From Rhodohalobacter sp. 614A (GTDB taxonomy: Bacteria > Bacteroidota > Rhodothermia > Balneolales > Balneolaceae): a stretch of DNA of 64,000 nucleotides. Made by a program: the position numbers and the translations under genes. Position 1 is the stretch's first letter; each line of letters begins with the position of its first letter. Below are positions 5,054 to 18,121 of this stretch, piece by piece. The notes under the pieces were generated by a model. That model had not been told where the DNA came from. It did not search any database and saw nothing but the letters and a program-made list of their open reading frames with translations. The stretch spans positions 2,080,273-2,144,272 of the forward strand of contig NZ_JAKEDS010000001.1 of assembly GCF_021462415.1 (NCBI RefSeq), in the 5' to 3' direction.

Positions 5054-5362
5054 TTAAAAAGCTGGAATAGGGTCTGTTCTGAAAAGTGTATCTAACAAGG
5101 TTAGCCCAATCAGAAGCCCGAAAAAGATAAGGGATGTGATGAGCAGCATGCCGTTGAACTTTGAATCCCAATAAAGGTTCATGAAAAATGCGGCTACCAG
5201 AGTAGCTTTTACAACTGCAATACTAATTGCCACTACAATATTCCAAGGGGCGGGAAAGTGAATATAGGTTACTGCAACGGTAATCACTGTAAGTATGAAA
5301 AGAGCAATCCCAATACCCCATAAGAATTTTGCTGATGAAATGTGATGATCGTGTCCGGACAT
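5054..5362 (-). CDS. ctaF: caa3-type cytochrome c oxidase subunit IV
   Basis: This small 102-aa protein has three predicted transmembrane helices, a His-rich start (MSGHDHHIS) and the KFLWGIGIALFILTVITV-type first helix typical of the prokaryotic cytochrome c oxidase subunit IV family (CtaF/CoxD-like). It follows subunit III by 19 bases and is the last gene before the operon terminator. The subunit is thought to help assembly or stability of the oxidase in the cytoplasmic membrane. Assignment rests on size, topology and position; individual residues are poorly conserved in this family. Confidence 0.85.
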   Translation of the reverse strand: MSGHDHHISSAKFLWGIGIALFILTVITVAVTYIHFPAPWNIVVAISIAVVKATLVAAFFMNLYWDSKFNGMLLITSLIFFGLLIGLTLLDTLFRTDPIPAF

Positions 5363-5381: not shown

Positions 5382-6041
5382 TTAGTCAATTAAGTATAAA
5401 AGTGGGAAGAGGAAAATCCAGATGATATCCACAAGGTGCCAGTATAGGCCGGTGATTTCAACCGGAGTGTAATATCCACTGTGCAAGGCTCCCCGTTTTG
5501 CTTTCACAACAAGCCATATCATCAGGCCGATTCCAATGGTAACGTGAAGGCCGTGAACACCTGTCATCATGTAGTAAATACTGAAAAAGATATTCGCTTT
5601 TTCGTGTGCAATCCCTTCGTAGGTGTAGTATGAACCGGGATAGATTCCAAGGTGGAATTTATGGCTGTATTCAAAAAACTTAATCACCATAAACACGCAA
5701 GCCAAACCGATCGTGATATAAAGGTTGTAAATCAATCCTTTAATCTGATTTAACTGGGCAGAACGGATTGCCATAGCCACTGTCAGCGAACTACCGATGA
5801 GTACAACCGTGTTTACACCACCCCAAAGGGTATTTAATTCTTCTGAAGCCATGGTATAGAGTTCGGGATACCAGGATCGGTAAACGATATATGCGGCAAA
5901 AAGCCCGCCGAAGAAAAGTATTTCCGTTACAAGAAAGATCCACATTCCCAGTTTTGCCGATTCAAATTGTTGATCGGAATCTATAAAATGGTGTTGCAGA
6001 TGTTCCGTTCTATGCTCACCTGTTGCAGTAGTTACAGCCAT
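5382..6041 (-). CDS. ctaE: Cytochrome c oxidase subunit III
   Basis: The 219-aa protein has five predicted transmembrane helices, with the family patterns KLGMWIFLVTEILFFGG near the N-terminus, MTGVHGLHVTIGIG and YWHLVDIIWIFLFPLLY at the C-terminus. This is the five-helix form of subunit III that lacks the first two helices of the mitochondrial protein, as usual in caa3 operons. Subunit III stabilises the catalytic core and proton uptake. The gene lies 18 bases after ctaD and 19 bases before the subunit IV gene, so the three are surely co-transcribed. Confidence 0.93.
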   Translation of the reverse strand: MAVTTATGEHRTEHLQHHFIDSDQQFESAKLGMWIFLVTEILFFGGLFAAYIVYRSWYPELYTMASEELNTLWGGVNTVVLIGSSLTVAMAIRSAQLNQIKGLIYNLYITIGLACVFMVIKFFEYSHKFHLGIYPGSYYTYEGIAHEKANIFFSIYYMMTGVHGLHVTIGIGLMIWLVVKAKRGALHSGYYTPVEITGLYWHLVDIIWIFLFPLLYLID

Positions 6042-6059: not shown

Positions 6060-7799
6060 TTATGCTTTTTCTTGTTCAGGTTTGATAACGTCCACCGGCT
6101 CGTCTGCATGGTGACCGTTGTGGTGGGGTGTTGCAATCCCAAGTTGAAATTCAGACATGGGTTTGTGGTAATCATAAGGCCCGTTGATAATAACCGGCGT
6201 ATAATCAAAATTGTGAAGTGGTGCCGGTGATGGTGTTTGCCATTCAAGTGAGCGGCTTCCCCACGGGTTTGCCGGAGCTCTTTCACCTTTTTTGAGTGAG
6301 TAAAAGAGATAACCTGCCATCAATAAAAATCCAACGCCCATTGTATAAGCTCCCAAAGTAGAGAACTGGTGGAACGGCTGGAATTGATCGATATAGTTGA
6401 AATATCGTCTTGGCATTCCCTGAGCTCCCATCACAAACTGAGGCAGGAATGTCATGTTAAATCCTGCAAACACAATTCCACAGGCAATTTTTGCGAGTCG
6501 TTCGTTGTACATTTTACCGAACATTTTTGGCCACCAGTAGTGCAGTCCGGCAAGAAATGCCATTACCATTCCACCCATCATCACATAGTGAAAGTGGGCA
6601 ACTACGTAGTAGGTATCGTGGAGGTGAACGTCTACGGCAAGGGCTCCCAACATAATGCCGGTAAATCCGCCAATGGTAAACAGGAACAAAAACGACATGA
6701 CATAAAGCATGGGCGTTTTTAGTTCGATTGAACCTTTGTACATCGTTGCCAGCCAGTTAAAGATTTTAATACCTGTGGGAATTCCTACAAGGAAAGTGAG
6801 GAATGAGAATACCATACTGGCAAGGGTTGACTGACCAGAGGTAAACATGTGGTGTCCCCAAACCAGGAATCCGATAAAAGCAATGGCGAGAGATGACAAT
6901 GCAATGGCCCAGTATCCAAAAATCACTTTCTTTGAAAAGGTGGAGATAACTTCCGACACAATACCAAAGCCGGGAACAATCATAATGTATACAGCCGGGT
7001 GAGAGTAGAACCAGAAAAAGTGCTGATACAGAACCGGATCGCCGCCAAGAGCGGGATCAAAAATACCGATTCCCAAAGCCCGTTCCATCGTAAGAAGAAG
7101 AAGCGTAATAGCCAGAACAGGAGTAGCAAGAATCTGGATCAAACTGGTAGCGTAGAGTCCCCAAAGATTCAGGGGAAGTTTATCCCACGTAATACCGGGT
7201 GAGCGGAGTTTGTGAATGGTTACAATAAAGTTCAATCCTGTCAGGATCGATGAAAATCCAAGAATAAATACCCCGAGTGTCATCATCATAACACTTCCTC
7301 CCGTGGTGGTACTGTAGGGAGTGTAGAAGGTCCATCCGGTATCAATTCCGCCGGTGAAAATAGCTGTCAATGTAAACAGAGCACCAATTACATAAATGTA
7401 GAAACTGGCGAGGTTTAATCGGGGGAAAGCCACATCCTTTGCTCCCAACTGTAGCGGCAAAATAAAGTTACCTAAAGCAGCGGGTACAGACGGAATCAAA
7501 AAGAAGAAAATCATAATGGCGCCGTGCAGTGTAAACACCTGGTTGTACACATCGGCGGTCATGAAATTACGGGCAGGTGTAAGCAGCTCGGTACGAAGAA
7601 GGAGAGCTAAAACGCCGCCAACAAAGAAAAACAAGGCAACTGACATGAGGTACATCAGGCCGATCTTCTTGTGATCAACCGTTGTGAGCCATGCCCATAG
7701 ACCTGTTTCCTGGTTTAAATAATGTTTTTCAGGATATTCTTCCGGCTTGAACCGTTTTACCTGAATCTTTCGGGTGCTAATTGCTTCGTTCGTAGCCAT
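6060..7799 (-). CDS. ctaD: caa3 cytochrome c oxidase subunit I (A2-type heme-copper oxidase)
   Basis: This 579-aa protein has twelve or more transmembrane helices and the full set of metal ligands: His92 (heme a), His267, His316-His317 (CuB), and His402/His404 (heme a3 and heme a, in VVAHFHYV). The helix VI motif reads FYSHPAVY (265-271). The Glu of the usual GHPEVY is therefore absent and replaced by the Tyr-Ser pair that defines A2-type oxygen reductases such as the Rhodothermus marinus caa3 enzyme. The protein reduces O2 to water and pumps protons. It starts 4 bases after subunit II. Confidence 0.96.
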
Positions 7800-7803
7800 G
7801 TAC

Positions 7804-8745
7804 TTATTCTAAGGTTTTAATGTACTCGATAATTGCATTGATCTGATCGTCGTCCAGTGTGCCGGCAAAAGCAGGCATTACCGGTTGAAAGCCTTCATGA
7901 ATTTTTGCCTGTGGATTGAGAATACTTTCGCGAATGTAGTTTTCGTCAGCAACAACGGTTTCTCCACTTTCAAGTGGCCTTTCAGAGCCAAATAAGCCCT
8001 GGAAAGAGGGGGCCTGTAAAATACTTCCGTCGGTTGAATGACATGTTGTACATGCATTTCTTTGCGTAAGTACTTCTCCAAGTTCAACAGGTGGTAAATC
8101 GTCATCAGCAGAACCTGCATTTGCAAGCCAGGTTTCGAAATCCTGTTGGGTGTGAACGAAAGCGGTAGCCATCATATTCGAGTGGGCATTTCCACAATAT
8201 TCTGTACAGAACACAACAGATTCCCCGGTTTCGGTAGCTTCAAACCATAAAGATGTGTACCGGTTTGGAAGAACATCCTGCTTTACGCGGAAATCGGGAA
8301 TGTAAAGCGAATGAATAACATCCACAGAACTCATAACCAGTTTTACAGGCCGATCTACGGGGACGTGTAATTCACCAACACTTACATGGCCGGTTGGGTA
8401 ATGAAATTCCCAGAGCCATTTTTTTCCAACAGCACGAATCTCGTAGGAATCATCCGGTGGAGTGGCTTTGTTCATATAGCCTGTATATCCCCAGCCAAAT
8501 ACAATAATTACCAAAATCAGCGGAATAACCGACCAGGTAATTTCAAGCCTGTTATTATGGGTAATAACAGGAGTTACATCGTCTTCTGATTTGCGTCTGT
8601 ATTTCCATGCAAAAAAGATAATTGCAATGGTGATACCAATCAGGAAAACCAGACTGGTAACATTAATGAAATTGAATAATGCATCCGTTTGTCCTGCCAC
8701 AGTACTTTTGGCAGGTGGGAGCATAAAATCACTAAGATTATTCAT
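7804..8745 (-). CDS. ctaC: Cytochrome c oxidase subunit II with fused cytochrome c domain
   Basis: The 313-aa protein has two N-terminal membrane helices (about 28-48 and 72-90) and a CuA domain with ligands His145, Cys180, Glu182, Cys184, His188 and Met191 ([12 protein letters not shown]). A C-terminal class I cytochrome c domain follows, with CTTCH at 232-236 and a likely axial Met in PVMPAF. That makes it a caa3-type subunit II. Electrons enter the fused heme, pass to CuA and on to subunit I. The ATG overlaps the stop of the upstream SCO gene by 4 bases (ATGA). Its heme domain closely resembles the C-terminus of ActE in the same operon. Confidence 0.95.
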
Positions 8746-9578
8746 CGATTAATTTCAATTTTTGGTGGTTTGGAAGAGTTCCGCTCGCGCTTCCAGAAAA
8801 CGCCAAGAAATATACCCAGAATAATTACGGTAGCCAAGCCACCGAGCTTCATTATATTGAGCGCAACGGGTACATAACTTTTGGAATCCGGATCGTAAGT
8901 AAAACAGTATAAAACGACTTGATCGACGGTTGAGCCAATGGTTCCGTCGGCAGCTTCGTAGAGTGCATTCCGTAAATCAAATTCACTGAATGTTGCTCCG
9001 TAAAGATACCGCACGATTTCGCCCTCCGGGCTGAGCAGCATAATGCTTGCCATGTGAATATATTGGTCTTTGTCTTCGTCGTATTTATAACGAAAACCGA
9101 TGGCTTCCGTCAATTTATCAATGGATTCTTGAGAACCGGTTAAAAAATGCCAGCCTTGTTCGGCACCGGGCCTGTTTAAATCCGATAAATATTGTTGTTT
9201 GCTTTCAGCAGCAATCGCCGGTGTTTCACCGGGATCTATGCTGAAGGATATAATGGTATAATCTGTACCGGGTGTCCATTTCAATTCGTCAGCTACTTCA
9301 AAAACTCCATCAAGAACAACACTGCAAAGTACAGGGCATTCATAATACAATGGATTCAGAAGTACAGGTTTTCCTTTTTCAATCAGATCGCCAATGCGAA
9401 CAGAGTCGCCCTGAGAGTTAACAAAACGGAGATCCAGGGGAATGGTATCTCCAAGATTCTCATCAACGCCAATCTCATCGAGAATGGCAGGCTTACCCTG
9501 GTTTAACTGTGCATGTGAACTATCAAAAAGAAAAAACACTGAAAGGTACGCCAGTATGCTCAGTGTCAGTTTTCTCAT
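8742..9578 (-). CDS. SCO1/SenC/PrrC family copper chaperone
   Basis: The 278-aa protein has an N-terminal signal peptide, a thioredoxin-like SCO domain with the copper-binding CPVLC (Cys81, Cys85; CxxxC) and a later His (YIHMASIM), and a C-terminal membrane helix followed by a basic tail (KRERNSSK). SCO proteins deliver copper to or reduce the CuA site of oxidase subunit II. It is encoded directly ahead of ctaC with a 4-base overlap, which fits that role. The C-terminal anchor is a common variation in Bacteroidota and differs from the N-terminal anchor of mitochondrial Sco1. Confidence 0.92.
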   Translation of the reverse strand: MRKLTLSILAYLSVFFLFDSSHAQLNQGKPAILDEIGVDENLGDTIPLDLRFVNSQGDSVRIGDLIEKGKPVLLNPLYYECPVLCSVVLDGVFEVADELKWTPGTDYTIISFSIDPGETPAIAAESKQQYLSDLNRPGAEQGWHFLTGSQESIDKLTEAIGFRYKYDEDKDQYIHMASIMLLSPEGEIVRYLYGATFSEFDLRNALYEAADGTIGSTVDQVVLYCFTYDPDSKSYVPVALNIMKLGGLATVIILGIFLGVFWKRERNSSKPPKIEINR

Positions 9579-9593
9579 ATTTGATAAAAAACG

Positions 9594-10103
9594 CTATTCA
9601 TTTGCAATCTGTGTGATTGCACTATCTATTGGGATTCTGTAAATACCCGCTTCGGCATCTACAACACCAAAGGAATTGAGCGTTTCCTGTTCATTAAGCT
9701 TCATTTCGTCAATTTCGTAGAATTGGCTTTGCTCAGATCGAAGAATGGTGGCCGAGGATTCGGTATAATTATGTATAAACATAATAGACTGGATAATGAC
9801 CAACATCATAACAATTCCAAAAACGGACCAGAACATTAATCGTTTATAGTTGAGCCGGTCAAAATTGGCTCCATAATTTACAGACTCTATAAACTCCTCT
9901 GTAGCTTCCAGGGAAACGTCTTCTTCCTTGGTAACAGTTGCAACGTCGCTGACGTCGGTTTCGCGTATCCAATTTCTAATTTCTTCTTCAGAAACACCAT
10001 GTTTTTCAGAAAGCTTTGTGATGGCATCTTCGCCACCGGAGGCTGCCTCTAAAGCAATCTGCTTTTTTTCTTCATCAGTAAATGTTTTTTGCTGCTTACT
10101 CAT
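9594..10103 (-). CDS. Unrecognised HTH-plus-transmembrane protein in the ACIII/caa3 operon
   Basis: This 169-aa protein is not a known ACIII or oxidase subunit. Residues about 8-46 (FTDEEKKQIALEA through SEEEIRNWIRE) look like the helix-turn-helix of IS3-type transposases (HTH_Tnp_1 pattern), but no transposase domain follows. A linker and one strong transmembrane helix (about 90-110) come next, then a 55-residue region that would lie outside the cytoplasm. It sits 21 bases after actF and 15 before the SCO gene, inside the operon and with similar codon use. An assembly or redox-sensing role is possible but is inference only. Confidence 0.8.
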   Translation of the reverse strand: MSKQQKTFTDEEKKQIALEAASGGEDAITKLSEKHGVSEEEIRNWIRETDVSDVATVTKEEDVSLEATEEFIESVNYGANFDRLNYKRLMFWSVFGIVMMLVIIQSIMFIHNYTESSATILRSEQSQFYEIDEMKLNEQETLNSFGVVDAEAGIYRIPIDSAITQIANE

Positions 10104-10124
10104 ACTGGTAAAATTTACAAATGA

Positions 10125-11324
10125 TTATTGATGATACGTTTTGTGAAGTGAATCCGAAAGTTTGGGATCGTTCACCGGAACCATGTTGTGTTTCTTGAAC
10201 CGTTGGAAAAAGAGTCCCATAAAAATGCCGCCGAGACCGATCAATGTGGCAAAATCAAGCCAGCTAAAAGAAATTCCGTGTTGGTGCAGTGTTGGCATCG
10301 CAATCCAGTACAATTCGAGGAAATGCATGACAATTACAAGTACGGATATACCGATTAATATTTTGTGATTGTGTTTGGTATCGCGGTTTAACAGAACAAT
10401 AAACGGAATGGCAAACCGGCAGATAATCAAAGCATAGCTGATGTAAGCCCAGCTTCCTTCAAGCCTGTGATAAAACCAAAGAGTTTCTTCCGGAATGTTT
10501 GCGTAATAAATCAAAAGTAACTGGCTGAATGCGATATATGCGTAGAAAACAGTGAATCCAAAGAACCAGGCTCCAAGATCGTAAATGTGGGATTTTTGGA
10601 TGGTATTTTCGAGAATACCTTTTCTGTGCATCCAGAAAATAAAAAGAATTAAAATAGGGAAGAGTGCCTGGAAGCTCATCGCAAAAAAGTAAACGCCGAA
10701 CATCGTTGAAAACCAATGTGGATCGAGCGACATCAACCAGTCAAAACTTGCAAATGCAACGGTTAAGGCAAAGGCCAGAATACCGGGTGCACTCAGTTTT
10801 TTGAGCAGCTCCGTAAGGCCCCAGTCATTCGTTCTGTCCATCTTCACAGATACCTGATGCAGTTTATAACCCAGGAATCCCCAAACAGCGAAGTAGATAA
10901 ACTGTCGAATAACAAAAAACGAGGTGTTTAAATACGCTGTTTTTTGGGATAAAATAGGATCATGTGCAACGGCATCAACATGTGTCCAGTGGTAGAGGCT
11001 ATGCATTCCCAAAAGTACAGGGATAACAAAGATGGACCAAATCCAGAGGTTTGAAGCAAAGGATTCAGGAATTCTGCGGATCACCGTTCCCCAGGATGAT
11101 CGGGTAATATGATGAATCATCGTAAGAATGAGGGAAGCAAGTGCAATACTTGTATAGAAGGCAAAACTCGTCAGGTACGAAAAGAAGAACTGCTCTGAGT
11201 TCAGAAAATAACCTACGCCACTGGCAATTAAACCAACAATGCCAAACCCATAGAATGTTTTGGAAACGTCCAGGTTTTCCGGGAATTGGATTGAATCAGT
11301 AATTTTTGGACTTGTTGAAGCCAT
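10125..11324 (-). CDS. actF: Alternative complex III subunit ActF (quinol:cytochrome c oxidoreductase, membrane subunit)
   Basis: The 399-aa protein has about ten transmembrane helices (for example FYGFGIVGLIASGVGYFL, IFVIPVLLGMHSLYHW and FALTVAFASFDWLMSL). It matches ActF, the second NrfD/PsrC-like membrane subunit of ACIII. The motif SLDPHWFSTMFG is characteristic of the family. ActF pairs with ActC in the membrane and may contribute to quinol handling or proton conduction. It carries no cofactor motif of its own. It lies 24 bases downstream of actE and upstream of the oxidase genes, the usual order. Confidence 0.92.
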   Translation of the reverse strand: MASTSPKITDSIQFPENLDVSKTFYGFGIVGLIASGVGYFLNSEQFFFSYLTSFAFYTSIALASLILTMIHHITRSSWGTVIRRIPESFASNLWIWSIFVIPVLLGMHSLYHWTHVDAVAHDPILSQKTAYLNTSFFVIRQFIYFAVWGFLGYKLHQVSVKMDRTNDWGLTELLKKLSAPGILAFALTVAFASFDWLMSLDPHWFSTMFGVYFFAMSFQALFPILILFIFWMHRKGILENTIQKSHIYDLGAWFFGFTVFYAYIAFSQLLLIYYANIPEETLWFYHRLEGSWAYISYALIICRFAIPFIVLLNRDTKHNHKILIGISVLVIVMHFLELYWIAMPTLHQHGISFSWLDFATLIGLGGIFMGLFFQRFKKHNMVPVNDPKLSDSLHKTYHQ

Positions 11325-11348
11325 TTATTCTAAAATTTTTGATCGAAA

Positions 11349-12347
11349 TTATTCTTCAGATTCAGACTGGTCAGATAATGATTTAATGAATTCGATAAGC
11401 GATTCAATTTCGCTGTCGCTCAGATAATCGAACGGCACCATAGAAGGTGCAAACCCTTGAACAATCTGGGAGTTAGGTTCCCGGATAGATTGCCTGATGT
11501 AATCCTCGTCTGCAACTACGGTGGAACCATCTTCTAATGGTACATCATGACCAAAAAGATTCTGGAAAGTAGGGCCAACCAATCGTGTTCCGTCGGTTGA
11601 GTGACAGGTCTGGCAGGCATTTTGTGTATAAAGTTGTTCTCCTCTTTCAGCAGAAACTTCATCGCTTGCACCGGCGCTTCTTGCTTCTTCAAGGGCTGCC
11701 AGCTCTTCTTGTTCGGCCTGGTATTCCTGCTGAAGTTCGGCAAGGTCTACATCAAAACGACCCATTTCAGATTCAGGAACATTCTGACTTCGCTGCAATG
11801 CCCGGATATACGCAACAATAGCCCAGCGGTCTTGAACCTTAATCTGGGTAGCGTATGAAGGCATGGTTCGAATTCCGTTTGTAATAGCTGAGAAAAAGTG
11901 TCCATCCGGCATTTGGCGAATCAGATCGGTATGGAATGATGGTGCGGGTACATATCCGTATTGACCTGTCATAATAATTCCGCGACCGTTACCTACACCT
12001 CCGTGGCAAACGCTGCAATAAATGTCATATCGTTCTTTTCCGCGGTAGATCAGCTCTTTGGTTACTTCAACCGGAATTTCTGCGACCAGATCGCCACTTT
12101 CATTTAAACCCCGGTAATAGGCATCGTCTTGTTTAAGCATGCCGCGTGCAATGGTTCCTTCAACCTGGCGTCTCATCGCCATACTGTCTTCAAAAAAGGT
12201 ATTCACTTCCTGCGCATTATACCGTTCCTGGAAATCCATATTAGGATTTGGGTGAATCGGTGGCTTTTCAGAGATGTGCCCCCGGCAGGAGAGCATAAAC
12301 AAACCCGATAAAAGAAGGATGCTGATATTTTTCTTCGATAATCTCAT
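11349..12347 (-). CDS. actE: ACIII cytochrome c subunit ActE with an additional C-terminal cytochrome c domain
   Basis: I start at the ATG at 12347, 10 bases after the actD stop, because it gives a lipoprotein signal peptide (MRLSKKNISILLL, Cys21 after FMLS). A longer in-frame start at 12398 would overlap actD by 41 bases. The 332-aa product has the ActE heme site CSVCH at 111-115, a charged Glu/Gln/Ala-rich helical linker (about 205-235) and a second site CQTCH at 245-249. Ordinary ActE is monoheme, so the second domain is an addition. By hand alignment it matches the heme domain of CtaC in about 46 of 84 positions. ActE is the electron exit side of ACIII. Confidence 0.92.
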   Translation of the reverse strand: MRLSKKNISILLLSGLFMLSCRGHISEKPPIHPNPNMDFQERYNAQEVNTFFEDSMAMRRQVEGTIARGMLKQDDAYYRGLNESGDLVAEIPVEVTKELIYRGKERYDIYCSVCHGGVGNGRGIIMTGQYGYVPAPSFHTDLIRQMPDGHFFSAITNGIRTMPSYATQIKVQDRWAIVAYIRALQRSQNVPESEMGRFDVDLAELQQEYQAEQEELAALEEARSAGASDEVSAERGEQLYTQNACQTCHSTDGTRLVGPTFQNLFGHDVPLEDGSTVVADEDYIRQSIREPNSQIVQGFAPSMVPFDYLSDSEIESLIEFIKSLSDQSESEE

Positions 12348-12357
12348 AGTTAAGAAA

Positions 12358-12909
12358 CTATTCATCATAAATGGTTTCGATGTTTGTAGCTCCGGCATCT
12401 TTGAGGAACTTTGTCACTTTTTCTTCTTCGAACTGTGGATCTTCTGATTCTATGCAAACAAAAAATCCATCATCAGTTGCTCGTTGAAAATTTTCTGAAT
12501 TAAAAAGAGGATGATTGAATTTTGGCAAGCCATTCAGGAAAAACATTCCGAAAACAGCTCCAAAAGCCGAAAGTAATACGGTGAGCTCAAATGTGACTGG
12601 AATCCACGCCGGCACATTCGCCAAAGCCTTACCACTGATATTCATCGGATAGTCGAAAACCATAGTAAAGCTGATTAATGACAGAGCGCCAAGAAAACCG
12701 AGCATACCATGACCGAGAACAATCCATCCCAGTTTCGACTTTTTCAGGTTCATTGCCTTGTCGATACCGTGAATGGGAAAGGGGCTGAATGTATCAAAAT
12801 GCTGATAGCCGCTTTCAACAATAGATTTTGACGCGTCTGTCAATTCCTTTGGATTCCTGAACTCAGCAAGAATACCATAGATCGTCTTTTCTGAATTGTC
12901 TTTATTCAT
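12358..12909 (-). CDS. actD: ACIII subunit ActD (DUF3341)
   Basis: The 183-aa protein has a soluble N-terminal alpha/beta region containing the YGILAEFRNPKEL start and the FDTFSPFPIHGID stretch typical of DUF3341. Two central transmembrane helices (about 60-82 and 98-123) and a soluble C-terminal tail follow. ActD is a cofactor-free membrane subunit of alternative complex III. It sits between actC (7 bases) and actE (10 bases) in the canonical actABCDEF order, which makes the assignment secure even though the family has no enzymatic signature. Confidence 0.93.
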   Translation of the reverse strand: MNKDNSEKTIYGILAEFRNPKELTDASKSIVESGYQHFDTFSPFPIHGIDKAMNLKKSKLGWIVLGHGMLGFLGALSLISFTMVFDYPMNISGKALANVPAWIPVTFELTVLLSAFGAVFGMFFLNGLPKFNHPLFNSENFQRATDDGFFVCIESEDPQFEEEKVTKFLKDAGATNIETIYDE

Positions 12910-12916
12910 GACGTTA

Positions 12917-14347
12917 TCAATTAGTCTGATTTTTGTATGGTTCAGGGACTTCTACCTTCGGTGGTACATATTCACCGTTCTTATCATAATTATGAGGATC
13001 TGCCTGTGGCATGACTCCTTTTATTTCAGCAACCGCTACCATCGGCAAGAACCGAAGGAAGAGCAGGAAGAAGGTGAAGAACAAACCGAAGGTTCCAATA
13101 TATGTTGCCATATCCCAAATAGTGGGAGAGTAGTATCCCCAGGATGAAGGCAGGAAGTCGGTTGAGAGGGATGTAACGGTAATTACAAATCGCTCAAACC
13201 ACATTCCAATATTCACAATGATTGAGATGACAAACGTAAATGCTACGTTTCGTCGTAATTTCTTAGACCAGAAAAACTGGGGTGAGAATACGTTACAGGC
13301 AAACATAATCCAATAAGCCCAGGCATAAGGTCCGGCGGCACGAAGCATAAAAATTGCTTTCTCATATTCTACACCGCTATACCAGGCAATGAATTGCTCC
13401 ATAATGTAAGCGAAACCGACCATGGTACCGGTAACCAGTATAATCATATTCATCTTTTCCATATGATCGATGGTCATAATATCCTCAAGACCATAGATTT
13501 TTCGGCAGATGATCATCAGGGTTAATACCATGGCAAAACCTGAAAAAACAGCTCCGGCAACGAAGTAAGGAGGGAAAATTGTAGTGTGCCAACCAGGAAT
13601 GATGGACACGGCAAAGTCGAACGATACAATGGTGTGTACCGAAAGTACAAGTGGAGTCGCAAGACCCGCAAGAATCATATAAGCTTTTTCATAATTCCAC
13701 CAGTGTCGGTTACTTCCTCTCCAGCCGAGGGCAAAGGTTCCATAAGCCATTTTTCCGATTTTGCTTTTGATACGATCTCTGATCGTGGCAAAATCCGGAA
13801 CAAGGCCTACGTACCAGAATAAAAGCGATACTGTAAAATAGGTTGATACGGCAAACACGTCCCAAAGCAGCGGACTGTTAAAATTAGGCCACATCGACAT
13901 TTGGTTTGGAATCGGGAATACCCAGTAAATAACCCAGATACGACCTACGTGAATGCCCGGAAATATACCGGCACACATTACGGCAAAAATGGTCATAGCT
14001 TCAGCAAAACGGTTAATAGCCGTTCTCCAGCCCTGACGAAACAGGAATAAAATCGCTGAAATCAGTGTTCCGGCGTGACCAATACCCACCCACCATACAA
14101 AGTTGATAATTGCCCAACCCCAGCCAACAGGAGCATTAAGTCCCCAAATTCCGGTTCCTTGCCAAATGAGGTAGGCTATTGAAACAAGCAGAAGTAAGAG
14201 AAGCATGTTGGCAATGCCGAATGCAATGTACCACCCTTTCGGGGTAGGCCGGACATTAATGTCCGTAATCATTGCAGTTATGTCTTTAAAATCATGATTC
14301 CCCTTTATAAGAGCGGGCTCTGGAACGTATTTGTACGTTTTACTCAT
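12917..14347 (-). CDS. actC: ACIII subunit ActC (NrfD/PsrC-like quinol-binding membrane protein)
   Basis: This 476-aa polytopic membrane protein of about ten helices belongs to the NrfD/polysulfide reductase C family. Visible family stretches include [34 protein letters not shown] and [19 protein letters not shown]. In ACIII, ActC binds the quinol at the periplasmic side next to the ActB iron-sulfur clusters. It is 5 bases downstream of actB and 7 bases upstream of actD. The charged C-terminal tail is cytoplasmic by the usual topology. Confidence 0.94.
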
Positions 14348-14352
14348 GTTTA

Positions 14353-17300
14353 CTAATGTTGCGAGTGAGTATCGTTGGTGGTTGTTTCTAATTCGGAATT
14401 CGGATTGCTCAGCTTGGCCAGGTAAGAAGTTCTTGGCCGAACATTCATTTCCTCGAGCATTACATAATTTCTGCTATTCATCTTTTGCTGAGAAACTACG
14501 CTGTCAGGATCTGTCAAATCGCCAAACGTAATGGCATTAGACGGGCAAGCCTGCTGGCAAGCGGTCTGAAAAGCTCCGTCTTGCGGCCTTGGTGTACCAC
14601 GTTCAATCTTGGATTTGATTTTAGCCCTGTTAACGCGCTGAACGCAATAGGTACATTTTTCCATCACACCACGGAAACGAACCGTTACATCCGGATTCAT
14701 TGCCATCTGTATAATTTCAGGATCATCTCCGGTGGTTAAATATTCTTTCGAGTAATTAAAGAAATTGAACCGGCGGACTTTAAATGGGCAGTTATTTGCA
14801 CAATATCGGGTACCAATACACCGGTTGTATGTCATTTGGTTCATGCCATCTTCACTATGTGTAGTGGCTGCAACCGGACAAACCTGCTCGCAAGGAGCCA
14901 TTTCGCAGTGCATACATGGTACCGGCTGGTGGTATGCTTCGGGATTTTCCATGTCACCCGCATAATATCGGTCATTTCGAATCCAGTGCATGATTCTTCG
15001 CCGGGCTACTTCCCGCTTACCTACAACAGGAATATTGTTCTCAGCCTGGCAGGCAATGGTACAAACTCCGCATCCAAAGCATGAGTTCAGGTCAATAGCC
15101 ATTCCCCATTGCGGTTCGTGGTTAGGGCCATATTGTTCATTAAAAAGCGAAATTGGCCCTTTTGAATCTCCTTCGTGAGCTGCTTCTTCCAAACCGGGAA
15201 CTTCATAACCGTGTTGACTTTCATAAGAAGCAAAGTCCGGGTTTTCTCTGTACTGTTCGATAGACGCTTTTCGGATCATGTCCCGCCCTTCGAGGCTTTG
15301 ATGATCCTGTGTACACGCAATGGTGTATGTAGAACCTGTTGCTTCCACTTCAGCAGCCTGGAAAAACAGATTTGAAGAGGTTCTTAATGGGAAGGTATTA
15401 ACACCCACTCCATCGGCTACGCGCCCAATATTCTCGCGTCCATATCCTGTTGTAAGTGTAATAGAATCATCGGCATGGCCAGGTTGAACCCACGCTGCAA
15501 TTTCAATCGCAGTATCTTCATTAACCGAAATTCGAACCATCGGAACTTCGTCACTGCTAAAGCTTCTTTCAGGATCAATTCCTAAACTTTCAGCGGTAGC
15601 CGGGCTCATTAGTGCCACATTATCCCACGTTACTTTTGTCATGGAATCTGGTAATTCCTGAAGCCAGCTAATATTGGCAAATCGTCCGTCGAAAAGTTTG
15701 CTATCTGGTTTGATAACTATTTCGATACCATCGACCATTTTGCTGCCCTGATCTTCCTGTATGGCCTGTGCAAAATTACCCGTTAATGAAACAGCAACAT
15801 TGTTGAACCCGCTGTCTGCATCAATACCGTCATGCAGGATCTGTTCCCATTGATCTTCAAAATTTCCGGGAAGCGAGCCTTGCCAGGTTTCTCTGACGAG
15901 ATCGTAACCAGAGGGTTCTTCTCCGCTGAGAATGGCATCTAATAATTCAATTTCACTGATTCCGCCGAACAAAGGCTGAATTTGAGGTTGAATAATAGAG
16001 CGTTGGCCGGAATAAGAGAGGCCGTCACCCCAGGATTCAAGAAAGTGTGCACGATTCACATGCCATGTACACAGGCGTGAAGTTTCGGTCACATAATCAG
16101 ACAGATGGATCGTGGTATCTGTATTTTCAAGTGCTTCCACGATACCCAAATCAGAAGGAGCTGTATAGGCTACATCGGTTCCAATAAGAACTGCAGTAGA
16201 ATAAGTTCCTGATTTTAGATCACTAATAGCTGTTGAAAATGCCTCATTTTCATTTCGGTCATTCTGGAATGGCAATTCGTGATACGTTACAGTAGTATCT
16301 ACATTGCCAAGAGCCGCATTCATAGCTGCAACAGCTGCATGAACGGCCGGTGAATACTGAGAACCAACGGTAAGAACCGAGCTTCCCTGATTATTCAGTA
16401 AATCATCAACAAGAGCATTCATCCAATCGCTCTGGCTATAGTCGTTGGAAATACCTCTGAATGCATCCAATCCGCTTACTTGTTGAGACAATCGTCCCGC
16501 AAGCGCATAAATAAAAGAAGGGATGTGAGAGGTTTTAACCCGTAACCTGTGATCAGCAAAAGAACCGGTACTTGTGAAACTGTTTTCTACACAGTAAATC
16601 CGTGAAATTTCGTCTTCAGGAGAGGTAACCTTACGGGTTTCATTTACATTGTAGACATTCTCAACGCTATTCTTATTGGCATGCGGACTCATGAAGTCAT
16701 CATCGAGCGAGACAATAATATTTGCGCTTTCAAAATGATTAACTGTTCGCAGCCGCTGTCCAAAAGCGATTTGAGTACCTTCAATCGCATTGTTATCGTT
16801 GAATGGTTCAAATGTTACCCATTCGGCATTTGGAAATTGTTCTAAAATCTGTTCCTTCAGCCTTTGATAGGTAGGCGAGGAGTTTGCTTCATCAATAAAA
16901 AGAATGGGTTGTTCGCGATCTTCAAAATGTTCTGCCGCAAAAAGTACAAAATCTGCAGTGGTTGAATTTTCTCCATTTAAAATAGGAGAGCGTGAACGAT
17001 CGGGATCGTATAAACTGAGAATGGCGGCCTGGTGATAAATATTTGTACCGCCGTGGCTGCTGGGATGCTCCTCATTCCCTTCAATTTTTCTGGGACGCCC
17101 TTCAATGGTTTCAACTAATAGTCCTGTAACAGCATCCTGAAAAGGCATGGCTGTTGCGTAAAAAAGAGGTTCTCCCAACACAACATCTTCCGGCATTTTC
17201 GAAAATGGAAGAATTTTTTGAACCGGTTTACGGCAAGAAGCGAAACCCGCGAGAGCAATAGAAGCGCCCATAACCCGAAGGAAACTTCTTCGGGATACCT

Positions 17301-17421
17301 GGTCAGTCATTTCTGTGGCATTCTCGGGAAATTCTCGTTCTACATATTTTTGATACTCTTTATTTTGAGCAAGCTCGTTTAAGCTTTTCCAGTATGTAGT
17401 TTGATTTGACTGATCACTCAT
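14353..17421 (-). CDS. actB: ACIII subunit ActB (fused molybdopterin-like and four-cluster ferredoxin protein)
   Basis: The 1022-aa protein has a twin-arginine motif ([10 protein letters not shown], residues 43-52) followed by Cys63 in GFASC, consistent with Tat export and lipidation as known for ActB. A long region related to molybdopterin oxidoreductases follows; in this family it binds no molybdopterin. From about residue 780 the ferredoxin part carries cysteine clusters [31 protein letters not shown] and CTYC with CQQACP. These hold the Fe-S clusters that take electrons from quinol at ActC. It lies 55 bases after actA. Confidence 0.95.
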
Positions 17422-17476: not shown

Positions 17477-18121
17477 TTAGTAATGACATCCCTGGCAATA
17501 CGTAGGAGCACTGATGTTGTGTTTAGCAACCAGCTCAAGTCCAAGTTCAATTTGATTTTCAACACTGTAACCCATCGTGGTTACTTCAGATACGGGACGC
17601 AGATGTTGTTCCGGCGCCCGGTGGCAATCGAGGCACCAACCCATACTAAGCGGTTTGGCCTGGAAAACCTGTTCCATTCTGTCGATTCTTCCGTGGCATG
17701 ATTCACAACCAACTCCAACGTTTACGTGCGCTGCATGATTGAAATAAGCATAATCGGGAAGCATGTGTACCCGTGTCCATTGCATGGGCTCTCCGGTCTC
17801 CCAGCTTTCCCGAATGGGCGCAAGATTTTCACTGTCCGTTAAAATCTGGCTGTGACAGTTCATACAAGTTTGTGTTGCAGGGATATTTGCATATCGTGAC
17901 TCTTCAACCTGAGTGTGGCAGTATTTACAATCCATTCCCAACTGGCCGGCATGAATTTTATGGCTGAACGGAACCGGTTGTTCTGGAGAATAGCCAACGT
18001 CTATAAATTCAGGAGAGAAGAAGTACCAAATACAAAAAACGATAGCATTTAAAAATATAATAGAGCCTAAAAGAATTCGTCGGGGTGCTTCGTTTGTCCA
18101 CTTAGGAAAAATCTGAGCCAT
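17477..18121 (-). CDS. actA: ACIII pentaheme cytochrome c subunit ActA
   Basis: The 214-aa protein has one N-terminal membrane helix (about 16-36) and exactly five CxxCH heme c sites: CKYCH (65), CMNCH (86), CESCH (139), CLDCH (163) and CQGCH (209). This is the ActA pattern. It accepts electrons from ActB and passes them toward ActE outside the cytoplasmic membrane. It is the first gene of the minus-strand respiratory operon, preceded by a 445-base divergent promoter region. Confidence 0.95.
   Translation of the reverse strand: MAQIFPKWTNEAPRRILLGSIIFLNAIVFCIWYFFSPEFIDVGYSPEQPVPFSHKIHAGQLGMDCKYCHTQVEESRYANIPATQTCMNCHSQILTDSENLAPIRESWETGEPMQWTRVHMLPDYAYFNHAAHVNVGVGCESCHGRIDRMEQVFQAKPLSMGWCLDCHRAPEQHLRPVSEVTTMGYSVENQIELGLELVAKHNISAPTYCQGCHY

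Follow-up and report, generated by a model that had tools for sequence, protein, structure and literature searches.

A CtaC-type heme domain on the ActE subunit of alternative complex III in Balneolaceae

The stretch of DNA analysed here, referred to as the window, comprises 64,000 nucleotides of contig NZ_JAKEDS010000001.1 of Rhodohalobacter sp. 614A (Balneolaceae) and carries on its minus strand a complete act-cta operon for alternative complex III (ACIII) and a caa3 oxidase, in the order actA-B-C-D-E-F, a gene for a 169-residue membrane protein, SCO and ctaC-D-E-F. Our analysis concerns ActE, the c-type cytochrome subunit of ACIII, which in this operon possesses a second heme domain resembling that of the oxidase subunit II, CtaC. 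The actE gene (11349..12398; all window features lie on the minus strand) is located between actD and actF and was identified by its match to the ActE chain of the Rhodothermus marinus complex and by its CxxCH count. It encodes 349 residues from the first ATG; as a start at 12398 overlaps actD, translation more probably begins at 12347 (Met18). A lipobox, FMLSC, ends at Cys38 (Cys21 from the later start), as found with a simple pattern that missed several homologues. The ActE proteins of R. marinus and Flavobacterium johnsoniae are described as having one heme each, whereas the window ActE contains two CxxCH motifs, at residues 128 and 262, and is therefore named here a diheme variant of ActE. 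Its N-terminal heme domain (ActE-N; 11805..12044, residues 119-198, Pfam PF13442, CSVCH at 128) is followed by a 42-residue acidic linker with a helix predicted by AlphaFold2 (11670..11744, residues 219-243) and by the C-terminal heme domain (ActE-C; 11373..11651, residues 250-342, Pfam PF00034, CQTCH at 262, Met320). CtaC (7804..8745, 313 residues; Pfam COX2_TM, COX2 and Cytochrom_C; TIGR02866) consists of a transmembrane segment, the COX2/CuA domain and a C-terminal heme domain with the single CxxCH of the protein (7810..8085, residues 221-312, CTTCH at 232, located by Pfam and CxxCH scan). Unlike caa3 subunit II, ActE has no COX2 domain, and ActE-C is thus not fused to a CuA domain.

The initial annotation of this DNA had counted 46 of 84 positions by hand as identical between the second ActE domain and CtaC, and computation bears out this near match. 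Local alignment of ActE residues 241-349 with CtaC residues 206-313 gives 54 identities in 104 columns and a score of 256, against a mean of 26.5 and a maximum of 50 for 200 shuffles. The first heme domain of ActE aligns weakly with CtaC (score 41, shuffle maximum 40) and at chance level with the second (score 31, shuffle maximum 49); therefore ActE-C is not an internal repeat of ActE-N, and this candidate source is ruled out. Chance resemblance between two class I cytochromes is likewise ruled out by the alignment score relative to the shuffles together with the profile scores: a profile of ActE-C scores 106.7-134.8 bits on 40 CtaC domains of the family and 80.3-131.4 bits on 47 other CtaC domains, and at most 30 bits on the other heme domains read around 15 Cytochrom_C matches of the same genome. 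In the opposite direction, the ActE-C domains of the family reach a median of 113.6 bits with a model of the family CtaC domains and 122.9 bits with a model of the other CtaC domains.

Comparison with solved structures divides the protein at the same place. The N-terminal part finds R. marinus ActE as its best match (6f0k_E, E 1.7e-72), and the further solved ActE chains 8k9e_E, 6lod_E and 6btm_E also match within residues 27-211, so that the solved monoheme chains cover the N-terminal part of ActE only; the NF050122 profile matches ActE-N weakly. For residues 250-340 the match is 1W2L, which is the heme domain from subunit II of the R. marinus caa3 oxidase (E 1.4e-26 with the C-domain alone). 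When an AlphaFold2 model of the linker and C-domain (12 sequences, mean pLDDT 86.7) was searched with Foldseek, 1w2l was again the best match (rmsd 1.4, TMt 0.89, E 1.3e-11), the next one having an E-value of 8.8e-5. Sequence and predicted fold thus support the assignment of the second ActE domain as a CtaC-type heme domain. It carries CxxCH and Met320, which lines up with the Met ligand of CtaC, as for a His-Met ligated heme c, and heme attachment is predicted. Among the 41 aligned ActE C-domains, CxxCH is kept in all and a methionine occupies the ligand column (31) or the next column (10).

The linker, measured from the end of ActE-N (ALQ or equivalent) to 17 residues before the second CxxCH, is 40-44 residues long in all 41 ActE proteins and 42 or 43 in 36 of them. 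It is acidic, rich in helix-forming residues and contains the motif [YFG]x[VIL][DNS][LVI] in 37 of 41; monoheme relatives stop shortly after the ALQxSQ segment. Residues 219-243 are helical in both AlphaFold2 models, that of the full-length protein and that of the fragment, with ten-residue block means of 70-93 pLDDT in the latter. Such a constant length is unlike that of a free tether. A fixed-length helical linker would also suit a purely structural role, in which ActE-C mainly holds an ACIII-caa3 supercomplex together and its heme is incidental, and unassigned density reported above R. marinus ActE shows that something can bind there (PMC5928083). The retention of CxxCH and the Met ligand in 41 of 41 domains argues against such a role, which we regard as the most improbable of the explanations considered.

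The remaining genes of the operon were assigned by domain-family searches, position and homologues. ActA (17477..18121) is a pentaheme cytochrome by its five counted CxxCH motifs (Pfam Cytochrome_C7/c3), ActB (14353..17421) the molybdopterin-like plus Fe-S subunit according to domain-family searches, ActC (12917..14347) an NrfD-like membrane subunit (PF03916) and ActD (12358..12909) a member of PF11821 (E 4.2e-65). ActF (10125..11324), a membrane subunit for which no Pfam or NCBIfam family was matched, was named from its position and its homologues between ActE and SCO. The 169-residue membrane protein (9594..10103) is probably an ActG-type subunit, a name that follows from its position. It begins with a transposase-type helix-turn-helix segment (HTH_Tnp_1-like, PF01527, E 1.4e-6), and its homologues in loci L092, L095, L099, L103, L109, L121 and L122 are shorter and, as judged by eye, without this N-terminus. 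The SCO1/SenC copper chaperone (8742..9578, PF02630) precedes ctaC, which is followed by CtaD, oxidase subunit I (6060..7799; COX1 match 8.5e-155 in a search of the genome), CtaE (5382..6041), whose homologues adjoin CtaD and which we take from its position to be subunit III, and CtaF (5054..5362), with homologues in the operon and presumably, again by position, subunit IV-like. The COX1 search also revealed a second COX1-family heme-copper oxidase in the same genome, which we assume from the neighbouring sequence to be of the cbb3 type.

To describe the distribution of the two-domain ActE, genomes were grouped into families, of which f1 is inferred to be Balneolaceae, f4 is a single genome (G107), and f2, f3 and f5 are sister families. 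Full-length two-domain ActE is encoded in 86 of 92 Balneolaceae genomes; five of the other six have no match, and G087 has only C-domain matches in CtaC-sized frames. The f4 genome also has a two-domain ActE, and the protein of Rhodohalobacter sulfatireducens (L001) is 73% identical to that of the window. A two-heme ActE is combined with a one-heme CtaC in a single operon in all 40 fetched f1/f4 loci (39 f1, 1 f4), and ActA has five CxxCH motifs in each of the 36 of these loci with ActA in range. The sister families contain an ActE N-domain match in 29 genomes, and in 28 it stands alone; in the 29th, G108, a contig end cuts the gene and the end of ActE is not readable. Six further f5 genomes are without an N-domain match. 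The combination of two-heme ActE and one-heme CtaC occurs in none of 20 loci of f2, f3 and f5 and in none of 20 other loci of the class; the rest of the class shows the N-domain only, among the matches listed. The heme domain of CtaC itself is present in 40 of 40 f1/f4 loci and 20 of 20 other-class loci. Two-heme ActE is therefore the rule in Balneolaceae and not in the phylum, a phylum-wide rule being ruled out by 0 of 28 readable sister-family genomes and by 0 of 20 fetched loci of other Bacteroidota with an ActE bearing a CtaC-type domain. Balneolaceae and f4 are the only examined sets with a CtaC-type domain on both ActE and CtaC.

A separate arrangement was found in 2 of 12 genomes of another Balneolaceae genus (g3), where a third CtaC-type heme domain follows directly after actE in a different reading frame (L061, 9115-9459 on the plus strand; L072, 7572-8039 on the minus strand). 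In L061 the change of frame, by minus 1, coincides with a run of nine A (A9), and in L072 it is plus 1; the third domain has no recognisable export signal, and ActE itself has an extra acidic tail. The third domain may belong to a recoded three-heme ActE, be a coupled separate gene or represent a decayed fusion.

ActE also varies in other phylum members and beyond. Frames of about 380-420 residues in other Bacteroidota were considered as candidate two-domain ActE proteins and rejected, as the twelve fetched ones (L142-L152, L161) are ActD-ActE fusions, in which an ActE-like heme domain is attached to a long ActD. Their loci encode a separate protein of about 300 residues, with one heme, after ActF. 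This further cytochrome is not CtaC-type (9-26 bits), and wherever CtaC is in range in these loci (11 of 11), it is heme-less. Of the other fetched Bacteroidota loci, all eight have a heme-bearing CtaC, L157 having a heme-less one in addition. In Planctomycetota, 98 of 149 genomes were matched; among the matches listed, none pairs ActE-N with a CtaC-type domain in one frame, and eight span both heme positions. Seven of these eight (L215-L221) are di- or triheme cytochromes, whose surroundings yielded a weak ActB-like match and otherwise no recognisable act subunit. The eighth, L214 (G752:C38), belongs to an act operon and has an ActE frame of 788 residues with seven CxxCH motifs, which scores only weakly as CtaC-type (16-20 bits); its ActA has six motifs. 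Published cases include the ActD-ActE fusion plus second ActE reported for Melioribacter roseus (PMC3534657), the duplicated monoheme ActE reported for Caldithrix abyssi (PMC5317091) and an ActE-like protein reported to have four hemes (PMC9386147). The heme number of ActE thus varies in other ways too, and such variation is in itself neither new nor unique.

The Myxococcota provide the second set of two-heme ActE proteins. Full-length two-domain matches were obtained in 23 of 195 genomes, all of which read as two-heme ActE, and the next matches drop to the N-domain only; the first 20 loci fetched from this phylum were chosen with a bias towards long frames. In all 11 two-heme loci with CtaC in range (L163, L170, L182-L185, L187, L188, L206, L208, L209; CtaC is out of range in the other 12 genomes), the linked CtaC lacks the heme domain. 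Monoheme-ActE loci with CtaC in range have a CxxCH in CtaC in 15 of 15 cases (L171, which has two, L174, L175, L178-L181, L192-L196, L198-L200); L197 (an ActD-ActE fusion with heme CtaC), L173 and L201 (no CtaC in range) and L213 were left out of this count. The 12 Myxococcota ActE-C domains placed in a tree form one clade (100/93), and their linkers comprise 15-22 residues, many with glycine or proline. The oxidase of the two-heme loci is distant, its CtaD scoring 448-477 bits against the usual 801-928. Further heme-protein genes lie near the cta genes in 6 of the 11 loci (L182-L185, L187, L188). Four of these loci encode an SCO1 protein ending in a weaker CtaC-type heme domain of 47-64 bits (L182, 806-2023; L184, 7933-9033; L187, 9071-10213; L188, 8822-10132), in three cases followed by a YHS domain, and these fusions, too, fit the view of the CtaC-type domain as a mobile module. 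As a separate observation, the ActE C-domain of L213 (4668-5586; G863:C703) comes after a one-heme ActE and lies in another frame, which overlaps the first, a split that resembles the arrangement of L061 and L072.

With respect to the origin of ActE-C, the initial annotation had proposed a duplication within the operon. A CtaC-type domain is borne out by the profiles and by 1W2L; a source in this operon's own CtaC is not established by the topology tests and identities given below. Mean identity of ActE-C is 43.3% with CtaC of the same genome, 41.8% with CtaC of other family genomes and 40.5% with CtaC of other lineages, and by this measure it is not clearly closer to the CtaC domains of the family than to those of other lineages. 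In 5000 random pairings the mean observed for the same genome was never attained, in a test that ignores relatedness and for an excess of 1.5 points. Only 1 of 41 ActE-C domains has its nearest family CtaC in the same genome, and recent copying or ongoing gene conversion between ActE-C and CtaC is thus not supported. The first, second and third codon positions are identical between the two domains of the window at 59, 71 and 47 of 101 sites; the third-position value therefore indicates an old pair and not a recent copy.

Two other Balneolaceae records contain genes for large DUF6797 proteins that end in an ActE-C-type heme domain (L139, 870-3746; L010, 553-3336). In two trees the f1 ActE-C domains form one clade (support 91/86, with the bootstrap not settled, and 97/81; 24 and 15 of 40 f1 pairs, respectively, each plus f4), which is located among CtaC domains, together with the heme domains of DUF6797 proteins and two standalone domains; a grouping with unrelated cytochromes, which would have spoken against kinship with CtaC, did not occur. 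ActE-C and the DUF6797-linked domains group with support 92/95. The approximately unbiased (AU) tests, before the first of which the rows L014, L011, L009 and L131_EX were left out, rejected no tested grouping (p-AU 0.10 to 0.44 over all), giving 0.44 and 0.17 for f1 with f4 ActE-C, 0.28 for f1 ActE-C with f1 CtaC and 0.20 for f1 with Myxococcota ActE-C. The f4 ActE-C domain stands apart from the others in both trees and its linker of 44 residues fits the family length; a quick tree of ActB, ActC, ActF and CtaD leaves f4 unplaced beside f1 and the three monoheme families. Possible histories are one gain in f1 and f4, a separate gain in each, and an earlier gain followed by loss, and the f4 protein may be an independent fusion.

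The transfer likely proceeded from CtaC to ActE, as CtaC-type domains sit on CtaC in most loci examined, and a derivation of ActE-C from the operon's own CtaC is plausible. A different origin, from a soluble or DUF6797-linked cytochrome, would reduce the likeness to CtaC to membership in a shared cytochrome subfamily. It agrees with the grouping of ActE-C with DUF6797-linked and standalone domains, with the absence of a closer relationship to family CtaC than to other CtaC, and with AU tests that do not settle an own-CtaC source; CtaC is nevertheless the most widespread source (40 of 40 f1/f4 loci, 20 of 20 other-class loci, many Bacteroidota and Myxococcota loci), and we consider this origin rather unlikely, though worth keeping in mind. 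The same DUF6797 proteins, ending as they do in the same domain type and grouping with ActE-C, might suggest that ActE-C is an inlet through which periplasmic dehydrogenases pass electrons to the oxidase, bypassing quinol. Matches of the DUF6797 type (frames of about 950 residues), however, occur in 4 of 12 genomes of genus g3, the genus searched for them, the Cytochrom_C matches of the window's own genome show no such domain besides ActE and CtaC, and ActE-C is near-universal in the family; an inlet function therefore appears very improbable to us.

We propose instead that ActE-C docks with the oxidase. As in the R. marinus complex, electrons from menaquinol would reach the ActE-N heme by way of ActB and the five hemes of ActA. 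From there they would continue to the ActE-C heme and enter the oxidase at the heme domain of CtaC, or straight at CuA, before reaching oxygen. The ActE-C heme would be borne on an arm of about 42 residues with a predicted helix of 25 residues (about 37 Å at 1.5 Å per residue), which would let ActE-C dock with its oxidase partner and make a free cytochrome c unnecessary. Since a helix of about 37 Å would, with the arm not folded back, separate the two ActE hemes too far for direct tunnelling, we infer a hinged arm and favour it over a static wire. The initial annotation had likewise placed the second heme between ACIII and the caa3 oxidase; such a role between the complexes is plausible, and the Myxococcota pattern lends it some support, the route itself being our proposal. 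A physical association of ACIII and caa3 is predicted here from operon linkage. As a whole, the explanation by a docking ActE-C that replaces a free carrier seems to us reasonably probable. More tentatively, and with somewhat less confidence than an even balance would express, we suggest a docking module that is mobile in evolution, shuttled between the quinol-oxidising complex and the oxidase, usually placed on CtaC, on ActE in one Myxococcota lineage and on both in Balneolaceae, where the helical arm would complete a carrier-free chain of eight c hemes (five in ActA, two in ActE, one in CtaC).

Several points weigh against this proposal. The AlphaFold2 model of full-length ActE is poor (mean pLDDT 57.5), and the relative placing of its two hemes is not given by the model. 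ActE of F. johnsoniae is reported to be deletable without loss of transfer to the aa3 oxidase (PMC8552683), and ActE is therefore not necessarily the route in every organism. The Myxococcota pattern probably reflects one evolutionary event, since the ActE-C domains form one clade and the linked oxidase is of a distant type, and would then represent an ACIII that is paired with another oxidase and bears the docking domain on its own subunit; the other heme proteins of those loci are, moreover, candidate carriers beside ActE-C. A CtaC that already bears the domain may make the copy on ActE redundant, or this copy may serve another acceptor, and the second heme-copper oxidase of the genome makes a branch role possible. 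ActE-N would in that case feed caa3, and ActE-C would be an outlet to the second oxidase or to soluble cytochromes, in line with the heme domain that CtaC possesses in all 40 loci and with the reported speculation that ActE directs electrons outside the supercomplex (PMC8552683). ActE-C is of the oxidase subunit II type, however, and in the Myxococcota it is found on ActE in loci with a linked CtaC devoid of it, which makes such an outlet unlikely in our view. We therefore retain the docking of ActE-C with the oxidase, in which both complexes of Balneolaceae hold a copy of the docking cytochrome and electrons probably pass without a free carrier protein.

A similar way of working is found in the bcc-aa3 supercomplex of Actinobacteria, where the diheme QcrC places two heme c domains of the quinol-oxidising complex as a bridge to CuA, although this complex is unrelated to ACIII and of the bc1 type; the weak NF050122 match of ActE-N is in keeping with this likeness. 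A diheme ActE with a CtaC-type domain was not found described in the open-access literature searched; this search did not cover Refojo 2010/2013 and Sun 2018, and an earlier mention is possible. Melioribacter and Caldithrix resemble the present case in that, as described in the papers cited above, their act operon includes an additional monoheme cytochrome, in a layout similar to that of L142-L152 and L161, and differ from it in that this cytochrome is encoded by separate genes or accompanied by an ActD-ActE fusion. Closest to the window operon are ACIII (6F0K) and caa3 of R. marinus, which share its operon logic, the pentaheme ActA, a close homologue of ActE-N and the 1W2L-type heme domain of CtaC. 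R. marinus ActE is, however, described as monoheme (PMC5928083), its chain matches residues 27-211 only, and the Rhodothermus-like loci L121 and L122 encode a one-heme ActE of 209 residues. How ACIII hands electrons to the oxidase is a matter of debate, as R. marinus ActE is reported to be the direct donor to caa3, lying near subunit IIc in a map at 20 Å (PMC5928083), while that of F. johnsoniae is reported as dispensable; Balneolaceae, with the domain on both proteins, and the Myxococcota lineage, with the domain on ActE and a linked oxidase devoid of it, offer natural gain and loss variants for testing this route. The ACIII-aa3 supercomplex of F. johnsoniae (6BTM) is like the proposed arrangement in that an extra tethered heme domain of ACIII is reported to bridge to the oxidase (PMC8552683; PMC5928083). 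There, the extra domain is described as the N-terminal sixth-heme domain of ActA, replacing the domain of subunit IIc, whereas in Balneolaceae it is attached to ActE, ActA has five CxxCH motifs and CtaC keeps its own copy. The Myxococcota pattern and the reported sixth ActA heme of F. johnsoniae together support the view that a tethered docking cytochrome is needed, with a free choice of attachment point, which suggests that the covalently tethered cytochrome is the constant feature of these systems and that its point of attachment varies.

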